This document shows positions 24,767 to 64,000 of a stretch of 64,000 nt of DNA, in pieces. Source of the stretch: Marinitoga sp. 38H-ov. GTDB taxonomy: Bacteria > Thermotogota > Thermotogae > Petrotogales > Petrotogaceae. The DNA is taken from assembly GCF_011057715.1 (NCBI RefSeq), contig NZ_LNGH01000017.1:1-64000 (forward strand), given 5' to 3'. How positions within the stretch are numbered: the stretch's first letter is position 1; each line of letters starts with the position of its first letter. The position numbers and the translations under genes were made by a program. A model generated the notes under the pieces. It was not told where the DNA came from. It was given only the letters and a program-made list of their open reading frames with translations, and did no database searches.

Positions 24767-25276
24767 ATGGTTAAAAGAGAAATGACAAGAAAATTCTTGG
24801 AAGATGCTTTTTGTGGTGAATCAAAAGCTCATATGAAATACACTATTTATGCAGAAGATGCAGAAGCTCAAGGTAAAAAAAATTTAGCTAAACTATGGAG
24901 AGCTATTGCGCATGCAGAATTTGTACATGCAAGAAATCATTTTAAAGCATTAGGATACTTAGGATCTATTGATTCAAATTTAGAAGATTCAGCTGCTGGA
25001 GAACATTTTGAAATTGAAGAAATGTATCCGGTTTATAAGAATGCTTCAGAATTTCAAGAAGAAAGTGAAGCAGTTAGAAGTGCTCATTTTGCATTAGAAG
25101 CAGAAAAAATACATGAAAAAATGTATAATGATGCAAGAGAATTATTAAAATCAAATGAAGATTTAGAAGATAAAAAAATATTTGTTTGTGAAATATGTGG
25201 ATATACAACATTTGATGCAGCTCCAGAAAAATGTCCAGTTTGCGGAGCTCCAGAAAATAAATTTAAAGAATTCTAA
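24767..25276 (+). CDS. rbr: Rubrerythrin
   Basis: 169 residues. Four-helix di-iron domain with Glu ligands in CGESKAHMKY, AIAHAEFVHARNH and ALEAEKIHEKMY, then a rubredoxin-like centre: CEICGYTTFDAAPEKCPVCG (two CxxC). Peroxide reductase of anaerobes using electrons from rubredoxin-type donors. RBS AAAGGGGGA; a terminator follows. Confidence 0.95.
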   Translation: MVKREMTRKFLEDAFCGESKAHMKYTIYAEDAEAQGKKNLAKLWRAIAHAEFVHARNHFKALGYLGSIDSNLEDSAAGEHFEIEEMYPVYKNASEFQEESEAVRSAHFALEAEKIHEKMYNDARELLKSNEDLEDKKIFVCEICGYTTFDAAPEKCPVCGAPENKFKEF

Positions 25277-25300
25277 ACAATAGCCTGCGGGCTATTGTTT
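25275..25300 (+). terminator. Rubrerythrin terminator
   Basis: AAACAATAGCC (25275-25285), loop TGCG, GGCTATTGTTT (25290-25300), then more T. Confidence 0.88.
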
Positions 25301-25388
25301 TTATATTTTAATTTTAAATTAACATATATAAGTTATAATTATCACAAATAAAATTTATAAAAAAGTTATTATATAAAAGTTAATATTT

Positions 25389-25479
25389 CTCCTGAGGTGA
25401 AGGAGTAATCTGACACCAAGGGAGGGGAAATAAGGGATTTAATATTCCCCTCCTTGGTGTAATGCAAGGAGGGGTTTTT
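25389..25479 (+). promoter_or_regulatory. Structured leader/attenuator of the hydrogenase-maturation operon
   Basis: Three hairpins can be read. First: CTCCT (25389-25393) / AGGAG (25401-25405). Second: a stem of about 17 bp, ACACCAAGG + AGGGGAA (25413-25429, one bulged G) with TTCCCCT + CCTTGGTGT (25445-25460). Third: CCCCTCCTTG (25447-25456), eight-base loop, CAAGGAGGGG (25465-25474), then TTTTT: an intrinsic terminator. The second and third share 25447-25456 and exclude each other. The third also contains the ribosome binding site GGAGGGG of the gene at 25484. I recognise no known riboswitch class; the geometry is that of a switch. Confidence 0.7.
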
Positions 25480-25483
25480 ATAT

Positions 25484-25732
25484 ATGGAAAATAAAATAAG
25501 TACAGTATCTATTGTAGTATATAATAGAGAGTTAGCTTATCAAAAAGTAAGTGATGTTTTGCACAATTATGGAGAAAAGATTCTTTTGAGGGTTGGATAT
25601 CCAATGAAAGAAAAAGGCATTGCAATTATATTTTTAGTAGTAGAAATGTCTACAGATGAATTAGGAGCTTTATCTGGTAAATTAGGTCAAATAGATTCTG
25701 TTAAGGTAAAAGCAAATACTTTAAAAATATGA
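25484..25732 (+). CDS. TM1266-type putative regulator of the iron-only hydrogenase system
   Basis: 82 residues with a ferredoxin-like/ACT fold pattern: ISTVSIVVYNRELAYQKVSDVL, GEKILLRVGYPM, IAIIFLVVEMSTDELGALSGKL, VKVKANTL. This matches the TM1266 family, ACT-like dimers related to the NikR C-terminal domain, usually found beside hydrogenase maturation genes. It has no DNA-binding domain. Being first in the operon behind a switch-like leader, it could be a ligand sensor in its control; that is a guess. RBS GGAGGGG lies in the leader hairpin. Confidence 0.85.
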   Translation: MENKISTVSIVVYNRELAYQKVSDVLHNYGEKILLRVGYPMKEKGIAIIFLVVEMSTDELGALSGKLGQIDSVKVKANTLKI

Positions 25733-25741
25733 GGTGATGGT

Positions 25742-27172
25742 ATGTTAAATATTAGTTATATTAATAAGGCCACGGAAAATTTAAAATCATTTATTCCTGA
25801 GGATAAAATTTTTGAATTATTAGAACAAACAAAAAATCCTGATCCAGTAAGGGTAAGAGAAATTATACAAAAATCATTAGATAAAAATAGATTAGAACCA
25901 GTAGAAATGGCTACACTATTAAATGTAGAAGATAAGGAATTATTAGAAGAGGTATTTGAAGGTGCAAGAGAATTAAAGAGAAGAATATATGGTAATAGAA
26001 TAGTATTATTTGCTCCGTTATACATAGGAAATGAATGTATAAATAATTGTCAATATTGTGGATTTAGAGTGACAAATAATAATATTGAAAGAAGAAGTTT
26101 GAATTTGGAAGAAGTAGTAGAAGAGGTAAAAGCATTAGAAAATAAGGGTCATAAAAGGTTGATTGTTGTATTTGGGGAACATCCAATGTACGATGCTAAA
26201 TTTATGACAGAAACAATTAAAACTATATATAATACCAAAGAAGGAAAAGGAGAAATAAGAAGAGTTAATGTAAATGCAGCTCCACAAACTGTAGAAGATT
26301 ATAAGTTGTTTAAAGAAGTTGGAATTGGAACTTTCCAAATTTTCCAAGAAACATATCATACAGAAACTTATAAAAAATATCATATAAGCGGGCCAAAATC
26401 AAATTATCTTTGGAGATTATATGGTTTAGATAGAGCATTTGAAGCTGGATTAGATGATGTGGGAATTGGGGCGTTATTTGGATTATATGATTGGAAATTT
26501 GAAGCAATGGGATTATTATATCATACAATTCATTTAGAAGAAACATTTAATGTCGGACCACATACAATATCATTCCCAAGAATTGAGCCGGCTTTAGATA
26601 CACCTTTAGCAGAAAGACCTCCATATGCTGTGTCAGATGATGACTTTAAAAAATTAGTAGCTATTTTAAGACTTGCAGTACCATATACAGGTTTGATATT
26701 GACAGCTAGAGAACCAGTTGAAATTAGAAATGAAGTATTAAAGTTCGGCGTATCCCAAATAGATGGAGGGTCTTCTATAGGAGTTGGAAGTTATCATGAA
26801 AGTGATGAAGAAAAAATAAAAAGAAGTCAATTTTTATTAGGCGATAATAGAACTTTAGATCAAATTATTGAAGAATTATCCGAAGAAGGGTACTTGCCAT
26901 CATTCTGTACAGGATGTTATAGACTTGGAAGGACAGGGGAACATTTTATGGAATTTGCAATTCCGGGGTTTGTAAAAAGATTTTGTACCCCAAATGCTAT
27001 TTTAACATTTTTAGAATATTTAGAGGATTATGCTCCAGAAAAAACAAGAGAAATAGGTTTAAAAAGAATTGAAGAAGAATTAAAAAATATTCCTGATGAT
27101 AATAAATTTAAAATGCAATTATTAGAGAAAATAGAAAAAGTTAGAGCTGGAGAGAGAGATTTATACTTCTAA
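25742..27172 (+). CDS. hydG: [FeFe]-hydrogenase maturation radical SAM enzyme HydG
   Basis: 476 residues, full length. Radical-SAM cluster motif CINNCQYCGF (CxxxCxxC) and the C-terminal auxiliary cluster motif FCTGCYRLGRTGEHF…FC (CxxC-x22-C). HydG cleaves tyrosine to give CO and cyanide and builds an Fe(CO)2(CN)-cysteine synthon for the H-cluster. Start ATG 25742 with RBS GAGGTGAT, 9 bp after the TM1266-type gene. Confidence 0.97.
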   Translation: MLNISYINKATENLKSFIPEDKIFELLEQTKNPDPVRVREIIQKSLDKNRLEPVEMATLLNVEDKELLEEVFEGARELKRRIYGNRIVLFAPLYIGNECINNCQYCGFRVTNNNIERRSLNLEEVVEEVKALENKGHKRLIVVFGEHPMYDAKFMTETIKTIYNTKEGKGEIRRVNVNAAPQTVEDYKLFKEVGIGTFQIFQETYHTETYKKYHISGPKSNYLWRLYGLDRAFEAGLDDVGIGALFGLYDWKFEAMGLLYHTIHLEETFNVGPHTISFPRIEPALDTPLAERPPYAVSDDDFKKLVAILRLAVPYTGLILTAREPVEIRNEVLKFGVSQIDGGSSIGVGSYHESDEEKIKRSQFLLGDNRTLDQIIEELSEEGYLPSFCTGCYRLGRTGEHFMEFAIPGFVKRFCTPNAILTFLEYLEDYAPEKTREIGLKRIEEELKNIPDDNKFKMQLLEKIEKVRAGERDLYF

Positions 27173-27181
27173 TTTTGGGCG

Positions 27182-28276
27182 GTGATTATTATTTCAAAAA
27201 GATTTGATAGGTTAACAGAAAAATTATTATCTCTTGATGTTTCAAAAGATATAAAAAATATAATTGATTATTTTATCGAAAATAAAACATTAAACTATGA
27301 AAATATATTAAAAATTTTATCATTTGAAGATGTAGAATTAAGAGAAGAAATATATAAAGTTGCAGATATAGTCAATAAGGAATTAAATACAGATATTATA
27401 ACCTTAAAAGGTGTAATAGAATTTAGTAATTATTGTAAAAAAAGTTGTTATTATTGCGGCATTAGAGTTCAAAATAATAATGTAAATAGGTATAGAATTC
27501 CAGTTGAAGAAATGTTTGAAATAGCAAAACATGGAGTTAATATGGGATTAACTACTATCATCTTGCAATCTGGAGAAGATGATTATTATAGCGATGATGA
27601 TTTAGAGCAACTAATATATAGAATACATCATGAGTTAAAGACAGCTGTCTCTATTTCTATAGGAGAAAGAAGTAAAGAAGCATATAAAAGGTTTAGGGAT
27701 GCAGGCGCTTCTAAAGTATTATTAAAGCATGAATCAATAAATAGAAAGGTATTTGAAAATGTTCATCCTGATAAGGATTATGATTTACGAATAGAATTGC
27801 TTGATTATTTAGTTGAATTAGGATATATTACAGGTTCCGGAAATATTATTGGATTGCCTGGTCAAACACTTGAAGATATAGCTAATGACATCCTTTTTAT
27901 GAAAGATCATAATATAAAAATGATAGGTATAGGACCATTTATATCAACACATAATACGCCATTAGAAGATTTTCAAAATGGTTCTGCAGAATTAACATTA
28001 AATGCATATGCGGCTACTAGATTAGTTATACCATATGCTCAAATGCCTGCGACAACAGCGCTTGGTACAATAGATAGAAGCTTTCAATTTAAAGCTTTAA
28101 ATTGCGGATGTAATGTAATAATGGTTAATATTACACCTGATAAATATAGGGAAAATTATAATATATATGATGAAAAAATAAAAGTTGATCTAGTTGATAC
28201 TGCAAAAAAGATTGTAGATATGGGATTGAGAGTTCCGCCATATACTATAAGAAAAATATATGAAATGGAGGCGTAA
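27182..28276 (+). CDS. hydE: [FeFe]-hydrogenase maturation radical SAM enzyme HydE
   Basis: 364 residues. Radical-SAM motif CKKSCYYCGIRVQNN (CxxxCxxC), GSGNIIGLPGQT for SAM/substrate binding, and ITPDKYRENYNIYDEK near the end, all typical of HydE, which acts on the HydG product in making the 2Fe subcluster. The start is odd: GTG 27182 sits inside the only RBS-like string GGGCGGTGATT; the next codons are ATT ATT ATT. Either GTG with a weak RBS or an unusual ATT start 4-7 bases later is used. 9 bp after hydG. Confidence 0.95.
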   Translation: MIIISKRFDRLTEKLLSLDVSKDIKNIIDYFIENKTLNYENILKILSFEDVELREEIYKVADIVNKELNTDIITLKGVIEFSNYCKKSCYYCGIRVQNNNVNRYRIPVEEMFEIAKHGVNMGLTTIILQSGEDDYYSDDDLEQLIYRIHHELKTAVSISIGERSKEAYKRFRDAGASKVLLKHESINRKVFENVHPDKDYDLRIELLDYLVELGYITGSGNIIGLPGQTLEDIANDILFMKDHNIKMIGIGPFISTHNTPLEDFQNGSAELTLNAYAATRLVIPYAQMPATTALGTIDRSFQFKALNCGCNVIMVNITPDKYRENYNIYDEKIKVDLVDTAKKIVDMGLRVPPYTIRKIYEMEA

Positions 28277-28277
28277 T

Positions 28278-29480
28278 ATGGCTTCTGCAATGAAAGGATA
28301 TAGGAAATATATAGCAATAACAGGAAAAAGAAATGTTGGTAAGTCTACTTTAATAAATGCTATATTGAATCAGGAAATTGCTATAACAAGTGATGTACCT
28401 GGTACTACTACTGATCCGGTTTATAGAACAATGGAATTGGTACCATTGGGGCCGGTGACTATAGTGGATACACCAGGTATTGATGATGAAGGATTAGTAG
28501 GAGAAAAAAGAGTACAAAAAGCTAATAAGGCTATGTATAAAGCGGATATCGCATTATTAGTTGTAGCGGATGTTTTGTCTGATTATGAAAAAAAGTTAAT
28601 AGATGAATTTAATAAACTTAATATTCCATTTTTAGTAGTAATTAATAAAATAGATGAATTAAATAATTTGGATGAAATAAGACAATCATATAGCGAATAT
28701 GATTATATTGAAATTTCTGCAAAAGAAAAGAAAAATATAGAACAATTAAAAGAAAAAATGGCTACAATATTACCTAAAGAAGAAGAAGTGCCTTTAGTAG
28801 CGGATTTAATTGAACCAGGGCAATTAATAGTTTTAGTTGTACCTATAGATTTAGGTGCGCCTAAAGGAAGATTGATAATGCCTCAGGTTACAGCAATTAG
28901 GGAAATATTAGATAGAGAAGCAATAGCAATAGTTACAAAAGAAAGAGAATTAAGACATACATTAGAAAAATTAAATCAAAAACCAGATCTAGTCATTACA
29001 GATTCTCAAAGTGTAATGAAAGTTGTTTCTGATATTGATTTTGATATACCTCTTACAACATTTTCTATATTGGAAGCAAGACATAAGGGAGATTTGAAGG
29101 TATTATCTGAAGGAGTAAAAGCTATAGAGAGTTTAAAAGAGAATGATAAAGTTATAATTATGGAAGGGTGCTCTCATAGACCTTTAACAGAAGATATAGG
29201 GAGAGTAAAAATACCAAGATGGCTTACTAATCATTTAGGTATAAACTTGAATATAGAATTTTTTGCTGGGACAGAATTTCCTGATTATGATATAGTAAAG
29301 GATGCTAAATTAATAATTCATTGTGGAGGTTGTACATTAACTAGAAAAAGTATGATTAGAAGAATAAATATAGCTAATATGTATAATATTCCAATAGTTA
29401 ATTATGGAGTGATAATATCTTATTTGCACGGAGTTCTAGATAGGGCTTTGGATATTTTCCCTGAATTAAAGAAGGTGTAA
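28278..29480 (+). CDS. hydF: [FeFe]-hydrogenase maturation GTPase/scaffold HydF
   Basis: About 401 residues. GTPase motifs: P-loop GKRNVGKST, TTTDPV, DTPG, NKID. C-terminal cluster-binding motif GCSHRP … HCGGC, the CxH-x(46-53)-HCxxC of HydF that holds a 4Fe-4S cluster. HydF carries the 2Fe precursor and passes it to HydA. A frame opens upstream at 28260 inside hydE, but ATG 28278, two bases after the hydE stop and 5-6 nt after AUGGAGGCG, is the natural start. Confidence 0.96.
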   Translation: MASAMKGYRKYIAITGKRNVGKSTLINAILNQEIAITSDVPGTTTDPVYRTMELVPLGPVTIVDTPGIDDEGLVGEKRVQKANKAMYKADIALLVVADVLSDYEKKLIDEFNKLNIPFLVVINKIDELNNLDEIRQSYSEYDYIEISAKEKKNIEQLKEKMATILPKEEEVPLVADLIEPGQLIVLVVPIDLGAPKGRLIMPQVTAIREILDREAIAIVTKERELRHTLEKLNQKPDLVITDSQSVMKVVSDIDFDIPLTTFSILEARHKGDLKVLSEGVKAIESLKENDKVIIMEGCSHRPLTEDIGRVKIPRWLTNHLGINLNIEFFAGTEFPDYDIVKDAKLIIHCGGCTLTRKSMIRRINIANMYNIPIVNYGVIISYLHGVLDRALDIFPELKKV

Positions 29481-29482
29481 AA

Positions 29483-30844
29483 ATGCGAATTGAAAAGGAT
29501 TTTATAGGTGAAGTTGAAATTCCTAATGATGTATATTATGGCATTCATACATATAGGGCTTTAAATAACTTTCCATCTACAGGTGAAAAATTAAATGATA
29601 GTTTTATTTGGGCACTGTTTATGATTAAAAAAGCAGCTGCTATATTGAATTTTGAATTGGGTTATTTAGGCGAAAAAGAAAAAAATTCTATTGTTCAAGC
29701 ATGTGATGAATGGGAAATATTAAAAGATCATATAGTAGTTGATCCTCTAAGCGGTGGAGCAGGGACATCTATAAACATGAATATAAATGAAGTGATTGCT
29801 AATAGAGCTACTGAATTACTTGGAGGTAAATATATAATTCATCCATTAGATCATGTAAATATGCATCAATCTACTAATGATGTTTTTCCTACAGCTGGAA
29901 AGATTGCTATAATAAAAGAACTAAGAGAGTTAGTAGATAATGTAATTAAATTACAAGATTCTATACAAGTTAAAGAAAAAGAATATATTAAAATAAGAAA
30001 AATAGGAAGAACACAATTAATGGATGCTGTTCCAATTTTATTAGGTCAAGAATTTGGAGCTTGGGCTGATGCATTAAGCAGAGATAGATGGAGATTATAT
30101 AAGGTTGAAGAAAGAATAAGAAGTGTAAATATTGGAGGCACAGCAATAGGAACTGGAATAGCAGCTCCAAAAGAATATATTTTAAAAATCACTAATAAGG
30201 TTAGAGAAATAACAAAAATTGGTATTGCAAAAGCTGAAAATTTAATAGATGCAACACAAAATTTAGATGTATTTTCAGAAGTAAGTGGATTGTTAAAATC
30301 ATTATCTGTTAATTTAATAAAAATATCTAATGATATTAGAATTTTAGGATCAAATGCAGTTAATGAAATTATTTTACCCAAAGTGCAAGCAGGAAGTTCT
30401 ATAATGCCTGGTAAGGTAAATCCTGTTATACCAGAATATGTGATCCAATTATCAGCTAGTGTAATATCATTTGATAATTTAATTACTTACTCATCTAGCA
30501 TGGGAAATTTGGAGTTGAATCATCTAACGCCTATGATTATTCATTATACTTTGAAATCAATTGATTTTTTAAAGAAAGCAACATATTCACTTAAAAACTA
30601 TATTGATTTAATACATCCAAATGAAAAAAAGTGTGAAGAGAATTTAATAAAATCATTTACGTTAGTGACGCCTTTAATTGAAATGTTTGGATATGATGAG
30701 GTATCAAATGCTTTAAAGGAAAGTAATTTTGATATAGAAGAAACAGTAAAATATTTAGCAGAAAAGAAGAACTTAAAATTTGAAGAAATAATGAATAAAA
30801 TAAATTCAAACAAAGCAGCAGGATTAGGATATCGCCTAAAGTGA
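29483..30844 (+). CDS. aspA: Aspartate ammonia-lyase-like enzyme (class II fumarase superfamily)
   Basis: 453 residues. Signature GSSIMPGKVNP with the catalytic Ser loop, TSINMNINEVIANRA and HVNMHQSTNDVFPT for substrate binding. These fit aspartase better than fumarase (length, DHVN-x-HQSTND), which splits aspartate to fumarate and ammonia. It starts two bases after hydF, so it is part of the maturation operon; ammonia for the azadithiolate bridge of the H-cluster is a possible reason. A terminator closes the operon, with the stop codon in its loop. Confidence 0.85.
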   Translation: MRIEKDFIGEVEIPNDVYYGIHTYRALNNFPSTGEKLNDSFIWALFMIKKAAAILNFELGYLGEKEKNSIVQACDEWEILKDHIVVDPLSGGAGTSINMNINEVIANRATELLGGKYIIHPLDHVNMHQSTNDVFPTAGKIAIIKELRELVDNVIKLQDSIQVKEKEYIKIRKIGRTQLMDAVPILLGQEFGAWADALSRDRWRLYKVEERIRSVNIGGTAIGTGIAAPKEYILKITNKVREITKIGIAKAENLIDATQNLDVFSEVSGLLKSLSVNLIKISNDIRILGSNAVNEIILPKVQAGSSIMPGKVNPVIPEYVIQLSASVISFDNLITYSSSMGNLELNHLTPMIIHYTLKSIDFLKKATYSLKNYIDLIHPNEKKCEENLIKSFTLVTPLIEMFGYDEVSNALKESNFDIEETVKYLAEKKNLKFEEIMNKINSNKAAGLGYRLK

Positions 30845-63384: not shown

Positions 63385-64000
63385 GTTTTTAACCTACCTA
63401 TGAGGTATGGAAACTTGTTTTTTATGATATTCATAGTATACTTATAAGAAGTTTTTAACCTACCTATGAGGTATGGAAACTATTTTTTCTTCTTCCAAGC
63501 TTGGGTGCGTTATGTAAAAGTTTTTAACCTACCTATGAGGTATGGAAACGATAAGTTTCGCATCCATCTTGGCGATATTTGTAATGTTTTTAACCTACCT
63601 ATGAGGTATGGAAACTTTTCTTTTGTTACTTTTAAAGTCACCACTTCTTTTTCGTTTTTAACCTACCTATGAGGTATGGAAACCCCATTTAAAAAATTTT
63701 TTTTGTTCTGTTTCCCATTGTTTTTAACCTACCTATGAGGTATGGAAACTTTTCCTTCCATGTTCATCATAAAGTGGTTCATTTACTAGTTTTTAACCTA
63801 CCTATGAGGTATGGAAACGGAATATCTTCACTGATAGTTCTTTCAATAGAACTTGTTTTTAACCTACCTATGAGGTATGGAAACATGTCTACCTTTTCAA
63901 ACACCCCAAAAGGGGTTAAAATGTTTTTAACCTACCTATGAGGTATGGAAACCAGGTCAAGCGGTCGTGATTATTTCAAATCTTTTATAAGTTTTTAACC
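63385..64000 (+). CRISPR. CRISPR array, nine full repeats plus a partial tenth, running out of the window
   Basis: 30-nt repeat beginning GTTTTTAACCTACC and ending TATGAGGTATGGAAAC, identical in all copies. Repeat starts: 63385, 63451, 63520, 63586, 63654, 63720, 63789, 63855, 63923, and 63991 (cut by the window end). Nine spacers of 36, 39, 36, 38, 36, 39, 36, 38 and 38 nt, all different. The repeat has a short TACCT/AGGTA palindrome and belongs with Thermotogota type III/I-B repeats. The leader and Cas6-csm operon lie upstream. By hand count spacers are T 147, C 58, A 88, G 43 of 336. Confidence 0.98.

Follow-up and report, generated by a model that had tools for sequence, protein, structure and literature searches.

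The window, by which we mean the whole 64,000-nucleotide stretch of Marinitoga sp. 38H-ov DNA that was analysed, carries an operon in the order TM1266-hydG-hydE-hydF-aspA-like, headed by a structured leader. Upstream lies a rubrerythrin-like gene (24767-25276), whose terminator-like hairpin at 25275-25300 sets it apart from the operon. A consensus promoter scan gave no full sigma-70 -35/-10 match in the leader region. Judging from a conserved TATAAT, transcription probably starts near 25346. In related loci (L032-L042 and L052-L065), inverted repeats such as GTGA-N6-TCAC or TTGTTAA..TTGAACAA sit near the expected start, between the TATAAT and the RNA element described below; they look Rex-like by eye. 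Far downstream in the window, nine CRISPR direct repeats (RF01315) lie on the minus strand at 63385-63952. The features of the leader and operon are the following:

25334-25339, plus strand: probable -10 box TATAAT, conserved in position across six further genomes of the genus
25386-25427, plus strand: conserved symmetric RNA element of 42 nt (match of covariance model R1, covariation, fold)
25387-25392, plus strand: 5' strand of helix P1, pairing with 25421-25426
25389-25405, plus strand: small hairpin, a 5' remnant seen only when the antiterminator forms (fold series)
25393-25395, plus strand: internal loop 1, UGA, facing AAG at 25418-25420; UGA/RAG conserved
25396-25399, plus strand: 5' strand of helix P2, pairing with 25414-25417
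25403-25410, plus strand: helix P3 (25403-25404 with 25409-25410) and apical loop, of variable length
25411-25413, plus strand: internal loop 2, UGA, facing AAG at 25400-25402; mirror of loop 1
25421-25426, plus strand: 3' strand of P1, also in the 5' arm of the antiterminator
25413-25429 with 25445-25460, plus strand: antiterminator, a 16-bp stem in which a single G is bulged (fold energy -25.0 kcal/mol, z = -4.2)
25447-25479, plus strand: intrinsic terminator with U run (fold and terminator scan)
25468-25474, plus strand: Shine-Dalgarno sequence GGAGGGG, within the 3' arm of the terminator
25484-25732, plus strand: TM1266-family gene (TIGR03959, PF21699; 88.5 bits), likely encoding an RNA-binding effector
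25742-27172, plus strand: hydG (TIGR03955, 511 bits)
27182-28276, plus strand: hydE (TIGR03956, 310 bits)
28260-29480, plus strand: hydF (TIGR03918, 532 bits)
29483-30844, plus strand: aspartate ammonia-lyase-like gene, which ends the gene run (NF008909, 560 bits)

An earlier note on this DNA had described two long, mutually exclusive stems in the leader. Both are present in the sequence and supported by folding. The terminator pairs 25447-25456 with 25465-25474 through 10 perfect base pairs followed by TTTTT (-20.1 kcal/mol, z = -4.2), and strand 25447-25456 is common to the terminator and the antiterminator, so that the two stems exclude each other. The terminator also buries the ribosome binding site GGAGGGG, as that note had claimed: the site sits in its 3' arm, 9 nt 5' of the ATG at 25484. 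Between 25270 and 25500, two terminator-like sites were found against 0.1 expected in shuffled sequences, and none of 200 shuffles folded as well as the whole leader (z = -4.1). The small hairpin at 25389-25405, which had been given as the upstream element of the switch, did not hold up. It folds with only -5.4 kcal/mol (z = -1.5) and shows no covariation (6 double-change cells versus 5.6 in shuffles); it was ruled out as a sensor, the conserved upstream structure being larger.

This larger structure was recognised by comparing the leaders of relatives. It is an element of 42 nt that scores 57.5 bits with covariance model R1 in the genome (E 5.9e-14) and folds with -18.7 kcal/mol (z = -3.2). 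Its consensus is C-UGA-N4-RAG-G / C-UGA-N4'-RAG-G; both strands read alike, and the element is therefore two-fold symmetric about the centre of P2. The letters of the two loops could allow U-G, G-A and A-R pairs. The sequence of P2 is almost free (GGUG/CACC, GAUG/CAUC, GAUC/GAUC, UUGC/GCAA, CUUA/UAAG and UAAA/UUUA all occur) and its length is nearly fixed: in a length scan, 85 elements had a P2 of 4 bp and two had one of 2 bp, and no P2 of 3, 5, 6 or 7 bp turned up, so that lengths other than 4 bp are essentially absent. Double changes affect 4 of the 5 pairs of P1, the innermost C-G pair being invariant; in P3 the G-C pair is invariant and the second pair alternates between A-U and G-C.

Covariation was quantified on an alignment of 45 sequences, in which 8 of the 13 pairs of the element show double changes. 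The alignment holds 88 double-change cells versus 27.5 +/- 9.4 in shuffles, a value reached by 0 of 500 shuffles. Standard pairs fill 94.2% of the pair cells (85.0 +/- 0.8 in shuffles), the covariation score is 0.412 (0.235 +/- 0.015), and shifting the pairing by 1 to 3 columns made it far worse in every case. When clostridial members were added, all four P2 pairs were double-changed and the score rose to 0.549 versus 0.209, on rows that were partly picked by their pairing. An independent half-site test therefore weighs more. In a set of 110 TM1266 leaders from Clostridia, both half-sites occur with zero mismatch in 13 when pairing is not demanded, and P2 is perfectly paired in 10 of these 13; the reverse strand gave none. 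When up to two mismatches were allowed and pairing was required, 21 of the 110 leaders matched, versus a mean of 0.05 in shuffles and no match on the reverse strand of the same leaders. The conserved element thus almost certainly exists and acts at the RNA level.

To follow the alternative folds, we computed minimum-energy structures of the growing transcript, on isolated RNA at 37 C, which gives energies and not kinetics. The element dominates until about position 25455 (-19 to -25 kcal/mol). From 25458 to 25470 the antiterminator takes over, with the small hairpin as leftover (-32.2 kcal/mol), and from about 25473 the element returns together with the terminator (-39.2 kcal/mol). This series predicts termination whenever the element is kept together through the middle stage. 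Thermotogota conserve the pairing of the element's 3' strand with the downstream arm (mean score 11.4 versus 6.6 shuffled). An antiterminator score of at least 8 was reached by 57 of the 71 Thermotogota elements, 42 of which also have a terminator by the strict criterion, found in 43 of the 71 overall. In the other phyla, scores for this pairing are far lower (means 7.5 and 7.8), which leaves the platform less evident there.

A second platform is found in one family (L005, L006, L009, L012 and L015). There the element has at its end the Shine-Dalgarno sequence GAGGAGG, immediately 5' of the start codon, and lacks a terminator behind it; in this translational version of the switch, folding of the element would occlude the ribosome binding site. 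These terminator and Shine-Dalgarno layouts bear out the proposal that the leader acts on transcription and probably on translation. Read from the layout of both platforms, holding the element very probably turns expression OFF. In four other loci (L079, L080, L092 and L093) the Shine-Dalgarno sequence at the end of the element belongs to a short reading frame, perhaps a leader peptide, which extends into a terminator-like hairpin ahead of hydG.

The element was found in Thermotogota, Neomarinimicrobiota, the Ignavibacteriales phylum and Clostridia, before TM1266, hydG, hydE or hydF. Its presence, with covariation, before the TM1266/hydG genes of other Thermotogota means that the conservation check proposed in the earlier note did not refute the switch. 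Model R2 gave few matches at clostridial loci because P2 differs in Clostridia, and a generic pattern and model R3 were used there instead. Many loci were fetched through TM1266, which biases its share among the first identified downstream genes: TM1266 49, hydF 9, hydG 4, hydE 1 and none 3 for 66 distinct Thermotogota sites, and TM1266 32, hydG 8, hydE 6 and none 9 for 55 clostridial sites. One of these four genes thus comes first at 63 of 66 and 46 of 55 sites, respectively. For Neomarinimicrobiota and the Ignavibacteriales phylum, TM1266 comes first at 15 of 20 sites and no gene was identified at 5, three of which are chance-like. Covariance-model and pattern searches that were blind to the genes likewise lead to hyd genes. 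The element precedes TM1266 also where no hyd gene is seen alongside, and it is carried by a contig of Marinitoga lauensis (L083). In another member of the window's genus (L034), hydG is read in two overlapping frames, reflecting a frameshift or a sequencing error.

A few targets are transporters and not maturation genes. The element stands before an ABC transporter with an SsuA/NMT1-type binding protein in one Thermotogota and one clostridial genome (L136:330-372 and L337:396-436) and likewise at L348:225-268, where the sequence stops within the gene that follows; it is possible that this transporter takes up a precursor of the H-cluster. In two clostridial genomes the element lies directly before an ECF S-component (PF12822; L351:301-341 and L352:333-373). 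Tandem copies, with 2-11 nt between model matches, stand before TM1266 or hydG in the clostridial loci L319, L330, L310, L329, L324 and L322. Extra copies in a Neomarinimicrobiota genome (L174, at site 8779 of G132:C177, and L175) have no hyd gene in the 600 nt that follow them. The Butyrivibrio matches L076, L085 and L331, near-identical in two relatives and with no hyd gene downstream, were discarded as chance, the genome of such a match having neither TM1266 nor hydG; so were the weak matches L178, L179 and L188, with no hyd gene nearby. A search of a phage collection gave no match.

We compared the occurrence of the element with that of TM1266 and hydG. Among 103 Thermotogota genomes, TM1266 exceeds its cut-off in 67 and hydG in 70; the element is present at E <= 4.1e-6 in 63, all of which have TM1266. 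The first model missed the element of one genome (G101), whose P2 is GAUC/GGUC. The element was found in 64 of the 65 Thermotogota having both hydG and TM1266 (the exception is G004) and in none of the 5 having hydG without TM1266. This association of element and TM1266 is significant (Fisher p = 5e-7) when genomes are taken as independent, as all our co-occurrence statistics do for related genomes. The five genomes (G046-G050) share genus g6 with G051, in which element and TM1266 are both present. One deletion can remove the adjoining element and TM1266 gene, and the five losses may therefore be a single event. In two of the five, the region from a tmRNA-like 3' end to hydG was read and contains neither element nor TM1266.

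TM1266 is present in 20 of 199 Neomarinimicrobiota genomes, which include 17 of the 19 element genomes (p about 1e-19, kinship ignored); the other two are weak matches in genomes lacking TM1266. Of 398 clostridial genomes, 212 carry TM1266. All 23 clostridial element genomes at E < 1e-4 have it, as do 41 of 44 when all matches are counted. R3 recovered the element in 41 of the 212 TM1266-bearing Clostridia; either R3 misses divergent copies or many of these genomes do without the element. At the hydG loci of the 16 hydG-positive genomes among 80 TM1266-less Clostridia, the element was found in none. In Athalassotoga and relatives, and also in the family labelled f2, hydG or hydF has the element in front of it and TM1266 lies elsewhere in the genome. 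Strong matches thus occur only in genomes with TM1266 in Thermotogota, Neomarinimicrobiota and Clostridia, with a few weak matches outside. The element follows the presence of TM1266 and not that of hydG, a correlation across genome sequences which ties it to the protein rather than to hydG. One genome (G000) has a second TM1266-like gene (C23:140846-141082, L068; 33 bits, below the cut-off), and a pattern scan of 6 kb around it gave no element.

The TM1266 protein of the window has 82 residues and no DNA-binding domain. It scores 88.5 bits with TIGR03959 (cut-off 60.8) and 96.6 with PF21699 (cut-off 27). Its predicted structure (pLDDT 95.5) is nearest to 2nzc (TM 0.95), the crystal structure of TM1266, which has been available since 2006 under the label 'putative regulator'. 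The next matches are the C-terminal domain of NikR and ACT domains (TM-score about 0.8). NikR is a regulatory protein that controls gene expression; TM1266 shares its C-terminal/ACT fold but lacks its ribbon-helix-helix DNA-binding domain, and its proposed target is RNA, not DNA. Residues R36, G38, P40, D58, G65, K66 and G68 of TM1266 are invariant or nearly so, and R15 and K76 are nearly invariant. The T. maritima protein has a homotetrameric crystal form (PMC12626770). Such a symmetry would plausibly suit a two-fold RNA site as well as tandem sites, and one tetramer might bind both copies of a tandem. For Thermotoga neapolitana under CO2, a published study gives values of 5.98 for TM1266, 6.39 for hydG, 7.52 for hydE and 1.28 for hydF (PMC7039931). 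TM1266, hydG and hydE rise together in these data and the hyd operon is therefore regulated by something. A search of the open-access literature returned no paper on the element, on the mechanism of TM1266 or on a TM1266-RNA interaction.

We then compared the leader with known systems. Over the element, neither the window nor 20 relatives gave a match above threshold to any family of Rfam 15, and the switch-like leader thus belongs to no riboswitch class in Rfam, in keeping with the earlier note; one TPP match (L018, 1894-2004) lies on the opposite strand, outside the element. The closest families were rejected. L10_leader (RF00557) scores 29.7 bits in the window against a gathering threshold of 44, and the leader precedes TM1266-hydG-hydE-hydF and not rplJ/rplL. 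The PyrR site (RF00515) has a threshold of 54 bits, well above the 18.1 reached in the window and the 24.4 in L304, and the Moco family gives a weak score far below its cut-off. PyrR and L10 leaders nevertheless offer a parallel, since they too are structured leaders before an operon that encodes the protein partner (likely so here), and since in them, as we propose here, the bound protein shifts the RNA towards one of two exclusive folds, so that transcription terminates or the Shine-Dalgarno sequence is occluded; they differ in the element and in the fold of the protein. Like an autoregulatory leader, ours places a covarying structured element in front of the operon of its putative partner, couples predicted exclusive folds to a terminator or a Shine-Dalgarno sequence and, for strong matches, occurs only where TM1266 exists. 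The layout of aptamer, antiterminator and terminator with shared strands is also that of terminating OFF riboswitches, but no Rfam riboswitch matches here and the presence of the element depends on a protein gene. In Caldicellulosiruptor bescii, Rex regulates a unit made of a CopG-type regulator and hydG (PMC6391272). Rex control is repression at the DNA level in response to NADH/NAD+, a layer separate from the RNA element.

These observations make it likely that the leader is an OFF-type RNA switch of the genes for [FeFe]-hydrogenase H-cluster assembly, worked by feedback from TM1266. That TM1266 reads the element is, from the genome comparisons, quite probable. A symmetric TM1266 oligomer, possibly carrying a ligand, would recognise the two UGA/RAG loops around the 4-bp helix. 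Once bound, it would clamp 25386-25427 and keep the 3' strand of the element from the antiterminator; the terminator would then fold and transcription would stop before TM1266-hydG-hydE-hydF. Without bound TM1266, the antiterminator (25413-25429 with 25445-25460) would displace the element and RNA polymerase would read through. Termination would be the outcome in most leaders; in the lineage where the 3' strand of the element is the Shine-Dalgarno sequence, TM1266 binding would block translation. In this model we infer the binding of TM1266, its equation with the OFF state and any ligand.

The earlier note had named SAM, tyrosine, an iron species or the TM1266-type protein itself as candidate signals. 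Co-occurrence favours the protein, and SAM, tyrosine or iron alone find no specific support. The main rival is nonetheless a small-molecule riboswitch, in which the element would bind a metabolite or metal linked to the H-cluster and TM1266 would merely be regulated. Such a riboswitch would account for the compact, structured form of an element that heads a coherent pathway and for an OFF layout typical of riboswitches; the ABC (L136, L337) and ECF (L351, L352) transporter targets would suit a metabolite signal, and the clostridial tandem copies recall cooperative riboswitches. However, the element is missing where hydG remains and TM1266 is gone, and an unlinked hydG is preceded by it only if the genome has retained TM1266. 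Its architecture also fits poorly, with two copies of a 3x3 loop around a nearly free helix in place of a junction or a large conserved pocket. We consider this explanation unlikely.

The two-fold symmetry could be read by any dimeric protein, and the element might thus be the RNA target of another RNA-binding protein with TM1266 and the hyd genes in its regulon. TM1266, the only protein candidate compared, is present in every strong-element genome across the tested groups, which makes such a partner improbable. A passive role, as a constitutive attenuator or stabilising 5' structure without regulator, is conceivable insofar as folds alone can set a basal readthrough; yet the loops are kept across phyla whichever platform follows, for which a passive structure has no need, and we give this reading very little credit. 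The slenderest chance goes to a DNA operator of a dimeric repressor that happens to fall in the leader. CTGA-N4-RAGG is indeed repeated at the DNA level and, in another genus, Rex is known to act on hydG (PMC6391272), but N4 and N4' are complementary instead of repeated and change together, the loop varies in length, matches occur on the gene strand only, and the element overlaps the pairing of the terminator or Shine-Dalgarno sequence. Covariation, variable loop and strand bias led us to reject it.

The leader is therefore of a known kind, an RNA attenuator that is probably controlled by a protein, whose element, geometry and partner fold appear to be new. The regulation of the hyd genes by TM1266 would give this protein a concrete candidate target, and it may explain how H2-producing anaerobes match the H-cluster assembly genes to demand. 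The element also points to further genes, the SsuA/NMT1-type ABC transporter and the ECF S-component, that possibly serve H-cluster assembly. There is about an even chance that TM1266 founds a class of ACT-fold RNA-binding regulators, sensing a ligand for feedback on the H-cluster in at least four phyla, bridging tandem sites as a tetramer and reading geometry, that is, two UGA/RAG loops exactly 4 bp apart on a helix of almost free sequence. If the binding is true, ACT-like domains gain a role in RNA binding through the shape and spacing of loops and not through the sequence of the helix.
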